From NCBI RefSeq assembly GCF_000239275.1, contig NZ_JH417605.1:51021-94308 (forward strand): a DNA stretch of 43,288 bases, read 5' to 3'. Shown in pieces: positions 9,540-14,564 of this stretch. Each line of letters starts with the position of its first letter. Position 1 is the stretch's first letter. The notes under the pieces are model-generated. The model was not told the DNA's origin and made no database searches. It worked only from the letters and a program-made list of their open reading frames with translations. The DNA comes from Megasphaera geminata F0357 (GTDB lineage: Bacteria; Bacillota; Negativicutes; Veillonellales; Megasphaeraceae). The position numbers and the translations under genes are program-made.

Positions 9540-9616
9540 TAAATAAGTGAAGCAGTTGTTATGCGGAGCTTATAGTTGAGCAGCATAATCTGACAGTTTA
9601 ACAGGGAGGGAAAAAC

Positions 9617-12600
9617 ATGAAATCTCATTTACGAAAAGCGGAACGAACGGCTTTTTTGGTTTGCGCCGTAATTACGTGGCTGTCGGCTCCCACTTTGGCG
9701 GCGGACGGTTCGACAACGGGGGGGCGCATTGATACCGGCGATGTCGTCGTTCGGATGGATGCGGCTAAAGAAGTGGCTAAATATGAATCGCAAAGCACTA
9801 CGATTATTACAAAGGCGGATATCGAAAAGAAACAGGCCAAGTCTGTGGAAGATCTTATTTTCAGTGAAACCGGCATAACTCGAACTGTTGATTCCATGGG
9901 ACGTGTAGGTATCGCTATCCGCGGTGCCGATCCGCGGCATACGCTGATCCTTGTCGACGGACAACCGGTTATCAGTGATGTGTCCAAATACATGGGTGCC
10001 GGCGATGAAGCAATGCGTATCGGTGCGGAAAATATTGAACGCATTGAGATCATCCGTGGTGCGGCGTCCGCTAAATACGGGGCCGACGCCATCGGCGGCG
10101 TCGTCAATATCATTACCAGGGCGCCGTCGGATAAGCCGAGTTTTCAGCTGAATGCCGAAGCACGCTACCATAGGCACGACGGCACGGATGAAAACAAAAA
10201 TACCTGGCCGTCGAATTATTATTTACGCGCCGATTCCGGTAAAGTCGGTAATGTCAAGTTCAGTATTTTCGGCAGTAAGCGGGATATCATGCCTGTTTAT
10301 TCGAACGAGCGGGCTTTTACGAAAGGCTCTGTCCTGAGCGGCTGGTACGATGATTTCCGTCCGTCTCTGCGCTATTACGGTACGTCCAAGAATATCGGTG
10401 CCGCGCTGAAGGTCGAGATTGACAAGGATCATGCCATTTCTTTCCGCGGCATGAAAGAGAAAGAGGACATGCAGCGTCGGAATAAAAACTCTACAGGATT
10501 TATTGAATCATACTTTGAACCCATGCAGATTTTCAAACGCACCATGGATCGGGATACGTACGGCCTGTCCTATACAGGCCGCGGCGGCAAGGCGGATTGG
10601 AAACTCGATGTGGACTACGGCAAAATGAAGGAACGTGATACGGGCGTTACAACTTATTACAATAAAGGGCGCGACGCTTATTCTGGGCAGAACGGCTTGG
10701 TGTCGCTGGACTGGCTGGAGCATAAGCAGCTCGGCGTTAATGCCGTCTTAAACTATGCGCCTAACGGCAGGCACCTTTTTACCTACGGCCTCGGCTATAC
10801 GGAAGAAAAGGCTGACGGTACACGTCTGAAAAATGCGCCCAAGCGCTGGATACGCTCCATCGATCCCTGGGACTATGAACGGAATCTTTATGTCCCTATT
10901 GAACAGGGCGGAAAATCCGGCGAACCCGATTCGAGTATTCATAACTATGCGTTTACGTACGGAGCCGACGGCGTTCTCCAGTGGAATCGCAATCTGGAAT
11001 ACTACAACAGCGAAACGGCGCCGCCTTTTCCTTATGAAGAATATAAGGAATGGACCGGTACCAGACTGCCGCATAACGGAACGACCCTCCCGGCCAACAC
11101 GATTGAACAATATGAAGGGTGGGGATATTTTCCTGCCGGCACCTATCGGAACGCACTGCAGGAGGCACTGCATAACGGCTCCATCACCCAGGCCCAGCAC
11201 GACCGCCTGCTTGCGGCGGGAGCAAAGCATAAGGCCTTTGCCCAGATACTGAATGATCTGAATCCGGGGTATGATACACACTATCGGGATATTGTCGATA
11301 TTTACTACGGTGGCAGTGATGTTTCCACAGCGTTTACGCCAGAAGAGCGTCGGAACCTTAAGTATAACGGATCGTATTTTAAGGAAAACTATGACTCCCG
11401 CAAAAATATGCTTAGCGGCGGTGAAGCGCACCTGCGGAAACGTCACTTTTTTATCCAGGATGCATGGCAGGTCAATGACGATACGATACTTACTCCGGTC
11501 CTGCGCCTCGATAACAGCGATAAATTCGGCAGCCGCTTTACGGCACAGCTCGGCATGACCCGCAACTTGGGCGGCAACCCGCACCGCCGTCTGAAGGCCA
11601 ATATCGGGACGGGCTACGCCGAGCCGGGACTGGGTGAACTCTATTATAACTGGGAAATGTACGGTTCCGCCGGCGGCAGCCATTACGGCTGGTACTGGGT
11701 GGGCAATCCGAATCTGAAACCGGAGAAATCGTTGAATTTCGATATAGGCATTGAAGGAGAAAATAAGAAGACTTTTGCCAGGGCTTCCGTCTTTCACAAT
11801 GTCATCGATGACTATATGACGACGTATTTTGTCGGACAGCTTATTGACTTCGGTTCGTATTTGGATCCGAACAGTTCCCTGAGTCTGGATCGGCTGTATA
11901 CGTTTAAGAATATCGGCAAGGCTGAAATCACGGGCATCGAAGCGGAAGTGCAGCACCGCTTTAACAGCCGCTGGTCGGCCAAGCTGGGATACGCCTGGCT
12001 CCATGCCGTCAATAAGAGCGATCCCGACATGCCGCGACAGCTTCTGGACCGGCCGCAGCATAAAGTGGATATCAGCCTGAACTATGAAGATAAAAAGCAC
12101 GGCTGGAAGGCGGCTCTCTGGGGAGATTACTATATTCACATGCTGGACAGCAATTCTGTTGCCAATACCTATACGGCCGCCGATTTTAATGCCGATACGG
12201 GAGAATGGAAAAAAAAGAACCCGAACTACCGCCCAAAACCTTCGGTATTTGGAATCTTATGGTCCAGAAAGAGTTCGGTAAAAACCTTACGGCGTACGTA
12301 GGCGTCGACAACCTCTTCAACTATCGCGACGACGACCGGGCCTATCAGGACCGACTCTACCGTCTGGGCGTGAATATGAAGTTCGGTCCCGCCACGGCGG
12401 AAGAAGCGGCGGCAAAGGCCGCGGCCGGGACAAAAATGAAGAACTCCGCTGTACTGACGGCGGAGGGGACAAGGGCTGAAGCTGTAAACGCTGTGGCAGA
12501 CAGTTGGTTCCTCGACCGCCCGTCCGACAAAGATGCCGGCCGTAAGCGAGGGGATATCAAGCTTATCGGCGACTACCGCATACGCAGCGGCATGTGGGGC

Positions 12601-14564
12601 GGCCAGGACCTGGCCGGCATGAAAAAATCCGCTACCGTATCTCTTGACGATGAAGCCGTACGCAATATGAAAGATGAACCGGGACACGGGCTGGAACAGC
12701 GACTCCGTCTCGGCGCGGATATTCAGCTGGGAGAGACTGAAAACCTCGTTGTCGAGGGATCCAGCGGCAATGCGGTGGATACGAAATACACGGCCGCGGA
12801 CAGGCGCGGCATCCACGGCGTGCGCCTGGAGCGGGCCGAACTCAGTAAAAAGGCGGACAAGTGGGACTTCACCGTCGGTCGCCTGACGGAACGCATGGGG
12901 ACGACAGGTTACTGGTTCGGCAAAGAATACACCGGCGCCCGTGCCGTCTGGACCGACAGTACCACGCAGGTCCGCTTCGGTTACGGTGATTTTTCCTTCT
13001 CCACGGGTATCAACGACTCGGCCTACTCGCATGTGGAAAAGGGCATGTTTATGAGGGCCCCCACTCTGTTTGAAGTATTGGGTGTTGGAAAAGAAGGCAG
13101 TTCTTTGCGGCCGTATACGGGATATACGGTACAGCCCGATTACAGGACGCAGCAGCTGGACTACTGGGACAAGTTCCTGCATGCTACGGACGGCCTGACC
13201 GACCCTGTAGCCAAGGCCGACGCGCGTCTGGCCGTTATTTCCGAGCTGGCTAATCTGCTCAAGGGAGTAGGAGAATCGGGTAATAATATTTATACCGGAA
13301 AGGATTACTACAACGAGAAGTTCCTGAAAGCCAACCGGCACGGAAGTGATTATGATGATGACAGCGGTATTATTACAAATCCCAGGATTGCCTTATATTC
13401 AATTGAAAACAAATATGAAGGATACGGCGCTGATATGATTATCCGTAAATCGGACGGTACGACAGTAAATCTTAAAAGCAAGAAAGCGGCACAGGCCGAA
13501 TTCAAGCGGCCCGGAGATTATCCGGATTACAAAAAAACATATTACCCGATTCTCTTATCGGCTATTGGCGCGGTATGGGGATACAGCCCATTGAAGCGCC
13601 CAGCTTCGGAGATATCTTCGGGCCGGACGGCAAGGCGAAGATTTACAGCTATCTGAAGTCCATTACGAATGCCGTAAAAGCGGAATATGCAAAGCGCGGC
13701 GAAACGATTACTTACGTTGACGATACCGGCAGGGAGCTGACGGAGCAGGAGCAGTTGGATAAAATGTATATCAACTTTGTAGGTTTGGGCCAACCGGCGA
13801 CGTATATCGGCGGTACGGCGGTCGTTACCGACTTTATCGCCAATTTGATCACTTGGGCCCGCTATGATCCGACCAACGGCGCCACGAATCTGCCGCTGAG
13901 CGGTCTGCCGGAAAATATCCTTGCCGTCGGCACCTTTGTCAAACATGATGTCATTCCCGCTATCGACAGGGCCGCCTATATTCAGGTGCGCCGGAAGGTT
14001 GCGGACAATTTCGGCCTGAACGCATGGTATCTCCGTTCCTTCGGAGACGGCTTCCGTGTGCAGGAAAAAGAGCTCAATGTGGCCGATGTTTTCGGCCTGG
14101 GAGCGCAATACAGGGTGGGGACCGATGCCTTCGTTTCCTTTGACTGGGGGCTGAACCGCGCCGAAACGGGGCGCTACTACCACGGCGGCCGCGGTGCATG
14201 GGGTGATTACACGGGCGGCGGTTCGAGCCCGACCTTCTGGGTGCTGCGTTTCGATGTGGGCCGTGCCGATACGGACGTACCCGGATCGTGGCATGCATTT
14301 GCCGATTACAAATCCTTTGAACACGGCTCCTTCCTCGGCGGCAACGGTACGGAAGGTCTGCCGGACCGTTATCTCGACGGGATCCGTTCCTTCACGCTCG
14401 GTGCGGGATATGTGCCGGCGAAGAACTTCCTTCTGGAAGCCTTTTATACTTTCGGGGCCAGGAGCACGGGACGGCGCGGGGTCATCCACGGCGGTGACAG
14501 ACTGAGCAGTGAAGCGTTCACCCTCGGTGATTATACGCGCATCCAGGCTACTTATAAGTTCTAA
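9617..14564 (+). CDS. TonB-dependent receptor fused to a second porin-like beta-barrel (frameshifted twice)
   Basis: The signal peptide ends near residue 28 (SAPTLA). A TonB-box-like DVVVRM and a plug domain follow (SVEDLIFSETG, IAIRGADPRHTLILVDGQPV, ERIEIIRGAASAKYGADAIGGVVNI), then the receptor barrel, whose last strand ends LYRLGVNMKF at about residue 923 (base 12384). Instead of stopping, the frame runs through an Ala/Lys/Glu-rich linker into a second domain of about 670 residues. That domain has alternating strand patterns (WDFTVGRLTERMGTTGYWFG) and ends IQATYKF, a second barrel-closing phenylalanine. The junction lies inside one open frame, so the fusion does not depend on repair. Two single-base losses interrupt the gene: one in the A run at 12235-12238 and one near 13566-13580. 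Repaired length is about 1649 residues. Iron, haem or cobalamin uptake is plausible from the receptor family and Fur-like box; the ligand is unknown. Confidence 0.85.

Follow-up and report, generated by a model that had tools for sequence, protein, structure and literature searches.

Multi-barrel outer-membrane proteins were reportedly described by Solan et al. in 2021, so the novelty of the gene presented here lies in its combination of barrels, the conservation of this combination and its switching. GfcD is predicted to comprise 12 + 13 strands and, between them, a periplasmic domain (PMC11494523). It resembles our protein in carrying more than one barrel in one chain and differs from it in its strand numbers and middle domain, whereas the present fusion joins a receptor to an OmpM-type barrel.

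For the second barrel, the reference system is OmpM1 of Veillonella parvula (PDB 8bym/8bys/8byt), a 16-strand trimeric porin in which loops 3 and 7 constrict the pore (PMC10628300). The second barrel of the fusion is homologous to OmpM1 in sequence and has the same 16-strand fold; unlike OmpM1, it has a receptor instead of an SLH domain or coiled-coil stalk, and about 330 extra residues in loop 4. For the first half, the described kin are receptors of the BtuB/Cir/FepA/PirA type, whose plug, barrel and closing strand are likewise complete in the fusion. Unlike in these receptors, however, the chain runs on into a second barrel, and the fused receptors form their own clade among Negativicutes receptors. 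As to switching, the phase-variable haemoglobin receptors HmbR and HpuAB of Neisseria meningitidis are iron-uptake receptors switched by slippage of a poly-G within the reading frame (PMC3786947). The receptor family studied here is alike in having a poly-G tract inside the reading frame and differs in its unrelated lineage, in its second barrel and in its up to many copies per genome.

Anatomy of the fusion gene

The window, that is, the whole stretch of 43,288 nt that was analysed, is from Megasphaera geminata F0357 (GCF_000239275.1, contig NZ_JH417605.1, positions 51,021-94,308, forward strand). Three ORFs at 9617-12301, 12205-13656 and 13575-14564 constitute one gene with two frame shifts, encoding a receptor and then a second barrel; all features given below are on the plus strand. 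A ribosome-binding site region (gggaggg, 9602-9616) lies ahead of the ATG, and the signal peptide MKSHLRKAERTAFLVCAVITWLSAPTLAA is encoded at 9617-9703, as read from the translation with an inferred cleavage point. It is followed by a tract of seven G at 9718-9724, found by a run scan of the 43-kb window and in frame (ON) in this copy, and by a TonB-box-like DVVVR near the mature N-terminus (9740-9754), which we take to resemble the BtuB TonB box DTLVVTA. Judged by sequence only, a TonB-box-like D[IV]VV stands at the mature N-terminus across the family. Pfam assigned a plug domain to 9788-10102 (PF07715, E 4.6e-22, window residues 58-162) and, alongside it, a receptor barrel (PF00593, E 6e-32), which extends over 10109-12384 according to Pfam, the sequence and the model of a paralogue, L010.

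The translation confirmed that the receptor barrel closes with RLGVNMKF, its GVNMKF ending at base 12384 as the sequence-only reading had it. Beyond this strand lies an Ala/Glu/Lys-rich linker of 55 residues up to the first strand (12385-12549, from sequence and family alignment). The OmpM-type second barrel then comprises strands 1-7 at 12550-12993 and strands 8-16 at 13968-14561, delimited by the paralogue model, profiles and sequence, and between them the alignment and the paralogue model place a large variable loop-4 insert (12994-13967). The chain indeed ends in a second closing phenylalanine (ATYKF), as had been claimed, with the stop codon of the fusion gene directly after it at 14562-14564. 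From the stop positions, the two frame shifts are bounded to 12190-12299 and 13474-13653, and they most likely sit in an A8 run (12209-12216) and an A7 run (13531-13537), respectively. The stretch 12190-13653 is free of stops and takes in the linker as well as the beginning of the second barrel; because these two share one stop-free stretch, the junction is independent of any frame repair, in agreement with the earlier claim of one uninterrupted frame. That claim's figure of about 670 further barrel residues was right for the length after the linker (725 residues after the junction), but about 330 of them belong to the non-barrel insert.

A profile built from 25 homologous second halves matched the window at 12469-13314 (E 1.1e-79) and 13761-14561 (E 3.1e-100), which shows that the second half is not a chance pattern. 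An OmpM profile matched at 14220-14465 (E 5e-16) and weakly at 12550-12996 (E 1e-4). The ORFs, the family profiles and the paralogue models thus agree on a receptor and a second porin-type barrel in one chain, as first proposed, and we regard the anatomy described here as nearly certain. A Pfam check of ten other ORFs in the window revealed no gene clearly split in two.

The receptor half and the OmpM-type barrel

Both structure models were taken from the intact paralogue L010 of the same genome rather than from the window copy, with the two halves predicted separately. The receptor half with part of the linker gave an AlphaFold model (pLDDT 79, pTM 0.78) whose residues 15-869 aligned to residues 7-594 of BtuB, 594 being BtuB's last residue (Z 38.9, rmsd 2.7 A), and which likewise aligned with Cir, PirA and FepA. 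The predicted barrel with plug hence covers the whole of BtuB and ends with the same strand, as the sequence-only reading had expected of a TonB-dependent receptor. The final strand of the model is the conserved G-x-N-x-K-F, the very point at which unfused receptors of the Negativicutes come to an end; a helix and disorder follow it. By these models, the first half is a complete TonB-dependent receptor. Comparison of the receptor with NCBIfam matched no substrate family, the nearest models all lying far below the cut-off.

Direct searches of Pfam, NCBIfam and PDB sequences with the second half returned almost nothing, with Porin_5 matched weakly, and the kinship to OmpM first surfaced through a genome search that returned OmpM genes. 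The stand-alone genes closest to the second half encode SLH domains, and their products matched solved structures of OmpM; an hhalign profile comparison of the second half with OmpM gave 99.6% (E 1.6e-24). The model of the L010 second half (pLDDT 76, pTM 0.65) had OmpM1 (8bym/8bys) as its best structural match by both programs, with Z 27.3 and rmsd 2.6-2.7 over 279-281 of about 322 residues, while all other porins stayed at Z < 22. Two families had been suggested as kin at the outset, and only the OmpM-like one was supported: the phosphate-selective porins OprP/OprO reached Z about 20, level with general porins, and were rejected, the sequence profile also pointing to OmpM. We counted 16 strands in the second barrel, using DSSP and the OmpM sequence pattern. 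An outcome in which the second part failed to form a separate closed barrel was sought by structure prediction of the intact paralogue and was not obtained. In the models, the protein is accordingly a single uninterrupted chain with two complete closed barrels. An SLH domain and coiled-coil stalk were also looked for; no SLH match was found in the second half or elsewhere in the fusion, where the receptor and linker take that place, so the second half is not an OmpM but only an OmpM-type barrel.

Alignment of the 25 second halves showed two conserved barrel blocks flanking the variable insert, with mean pairwise identities of 51% and 58% for the blocks and 25% for the insert, which ranged from 261 to 425 residues. 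As the insert is placed between strands 7 and 8, strand parity makes it extracellular, and a variable loop 4 of this very large size might form a cap over the pore or serve as a domain presenting a ligand or antigen. These features bear on the idea that an energised receptor is here coupled to an open passive porin for the same nutrient, with the second barrel passing the substrate or counter-ions and the receptor importing the scarce form. This idea draws on the completeness of both barrels and on the OmpM type of the second one, the OmpM paralogues being the general diffusion porins of Veillonella (PMC10628300). On the other hand, stand-alone OmpM genes of the same genome already provide general diffusion, the loop-4 insert may cover the pore, and nothing ties the substrates of the two halves together, so that we consider it unlikely, though the least so of the alternatives. 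We prefer a role of the second barrel in anchoring, oligomerisation and surface display, possibly still as a pore, and give it about even chances.

Poly-G tracts, paralogues and spread in the Negativicutes

The G7 tract is the only G or C run of at least seven in the 43-kb window and begins 14 bases past the presumed signal peptide. At the same post-signal site, fused genes of Megasphaera, Selenomonas, Centipeda and Colibacter have runs of 7-13 G; the Veillonella-type loci examined were without such a tract. In total, 15 of 42 genes carried a poly-G of at least seven at this site, whereas 674 kb of strand in the rest of these loci contained a single such run; we picked the site with the tracts already in view, but the contrast with the background is very large. 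The frame could be read in 14 genes, six of them being in frame and eight out of frame, the latter with an intact signal peptide in another frame. Judging from these sequences, the fused-gene copies are very probably phase-variable. One fused copy of the window's own genome (C13; L133 6416-6435, minus strand) also has A8 and G11 runs within the first signal-peptide codons, a second possible slippage site. In the literature that we searched, neither a fusion of a receptor with OmpM nor phase variation of receptors in these genera was described, and we came across no account of such switching for the Negativicutes as a group.

Since the tract lengths come from assemblies rather than reads and the window's assembly also breaks ompM genes, some of the lengths could be wrong. 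The out-of-frame copies might even all be homopolymer assembly errors, given the other frame breaks in the window genome and the error-proneness of long G runs. However, the tracts occupy the same site in several genera whose genomes were deposited separately, and beyond that site the loci have hardly any run of seven or more G, which makes the long tract itself the oddity. We therefore think an error of this kind improbable, and phase variation remains the preferred interpretation.

The 1.8-Mb draft assembly of M. geminata F0357 (57 contigs) was searched piecewise and found to hold at least six further fused copies (on C50, C13, C26, C57, C35 and C48), besides unfused receptor genes (C53, C5 and C21). 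The C50 copy, L010, is one open frame of 1,659 residues from just past the signal peptide to QATYKF, and most of the other fused copies are frame-broken. The three main ompM genes of this genome, in tandem on C44 (43031-47729; L127-L131), all have frame breaks as well; since even OmpM, the main Negativicutes porin, is broken, the breaks are best read as sequence errors of the assembly, though the genes may truly be decaying. C26 carries the end of one fused gene ahead of the start of another, so tandem copies exist. The two ends of a 5.3-kb contig (L011 1-5340) coincide at one point inside fused genes, as a tandem array of such genes would produce. Some paralogues share short near-identical blocks (C48/C57, 93-96% over 228-233 bases; C13/C26, 90% over 496), a sign of probable gene conversion.

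A scan of named genomes detected the fusion in Megasphaera cerevisiae (many copies), M. micronuciformis, M. hutchinsoni, Colibacter, several Selenomonas, Centipeda, Veillonella sp. 3310 and one Sporomusaceae MAG. Fused genes of M. cerevisiae (L037-L066) lie near the ends of many scaffolds, and the repeated family probably breaks that assembly. Finished one-contig genomes contain intact fusion frames of 1,690-1,712 residues, some as tandem pairs; with the same junction unbroken there and in L010, the fusion proved, as claimed, to be no artefact of frame repair. Counting its recurrence among 300 Negativicutes genomes gave strong matches in 41 genomes besides the window's own, from five families, mostly in frames of about 1,270-1,850 residues, the remainder being broken or partial copies. 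The OmpM genes of the same 300 genomes made up a separate group of weak matches in frames of 437-600 residues, and this class-wide search found no intact stand-alone gene for the second-barrel type. One partial second-barrel copy with a 274-residue frame (G103:C1:1822911-1823699) is perhaps a remnant or a recombination donor. A 299-genome sample of the phylum gave no match outside the class.

Receptor frames in the relatives fall into two sizes, about 620-840 and about 1,450-1,850 residues. A tree of 25 fused and 19 unfused receptors placed all fused ones on one side of a single branch, which was supported in 100 of 100 bootstraps. As they form one clade, the fusion arose once and then spread by duplication, and nothing in the tree of these sequences suggests repeated fusion. 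The sister group is uncertain, because the unfused set was hand-picked and has long branches.

Of all segments of the family, the linker is conserved least (17% mean pairwise identity), and it is disordered or helical in the paralogue models, which would suit a precursor cut in the linker into two outer-membrane proteins, the fusion then serving equal expression and joint phase variation. This is rather doubtful, however, because the linker varies in length by no more than tens of residues (22-57 over the aligned part) and the frame is kept across five families, and we prefer a chain that stays whole. The two shifts and the broken state of most other copies in the genome might suggest that the window gene is a pseudogene in decay or a chimera created in assembly from two adjacent genes. 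Either is highly improbable in view of the intact fusions in finished genomes and in one paralogue and of the three equally broken main ompM genes, which point to sequence errors, and the fusion architecture itself cannot be a chimera because it recurs across genomes.

Probable energy coupling and a proposed mechanism

The window's own genome has TonB_C and ExbD matches above the cut-off, plus ExbB. On C13, exbB, exbD, tonB and a gene for a PNPOx-fold protein directly precede the fused gene in this order and on the same strand (L133 6869-9615 upstream). Of 20 relatives checked, 11 have ExbD matches no more than a few kb from fused genes (G002, G004, G005, G011, G020, G026, G035, G037, G047, G050 and G132), in all but G011 on the same strand. 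No exbBD genes adjoin the window copy. The PNPOx-fold protein may have a part in haem or iron use. Elsewhere, a second exbB/exbD pair stands beside an FTR1-type iron permease and a protein matching Pfam Iron_transport (P19-like) (L134 4698-8285). Other conserved operon partners were considered and rejected, as ten ORFs flanking fused genes were of unrelated kinds and only exbBD/tonB recur. Fur boxes upstream gave a weak signal, barely above shuffles (mean best 12.9 vs 11.6 of 19), and are left out of the argument. The receptor half is very probably energised, and the TonB/ExbBD genes adjoining fused genes in several genomes make an iron substrate plausible.

The explanation that we favour, with somewhat better than even confidence for the whole, is a two-barrel, phase-variable receptor with the OmpM half as its porin-like anchor. 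A receptor would have been joined once to an OmpM barrel stripped of its SLH/stalk part and then amplified into a phase-variable gene family. BamA would fold both barrels, joined by a flexible variable linker, from one precursor, and TonB/ExbBD would supply the receptor half with energy for taking up a scarce nutrient, an iron compound being the most likely one. Mainly as a porin-like anchor that probably forms trimers, the OmpM half would gather receptors, whether or not its pore is open, and would display the variable loop-4 domain of about 330 residues at the cell surface. Slippage of the poly-G tract past the signal peptide would toggle single copies, and through on and off copies cells may vary the receptor that is exposed to antibodies, phages or ligands. 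More tentatively, fusion chains might trimerise into a six-barrel complex assembled by BamA from two-barrel precursors, with three energised receptors around a trimeric OmpM-type porin core and with phase-variable and hypervariable surface loops.

The fusion offers a conserved, naturally occurring chain that holds two large barrels of different kinds. On it, one can test by what route BamA folds barrels in tandem and whether a porin and an energised receptor are able to function together as a unit. The fusion further links TonB uptake to the OmpM porin family of diderm Firmicutes, and points to a large phase-variable family of surface receptors in the Negativicutes.
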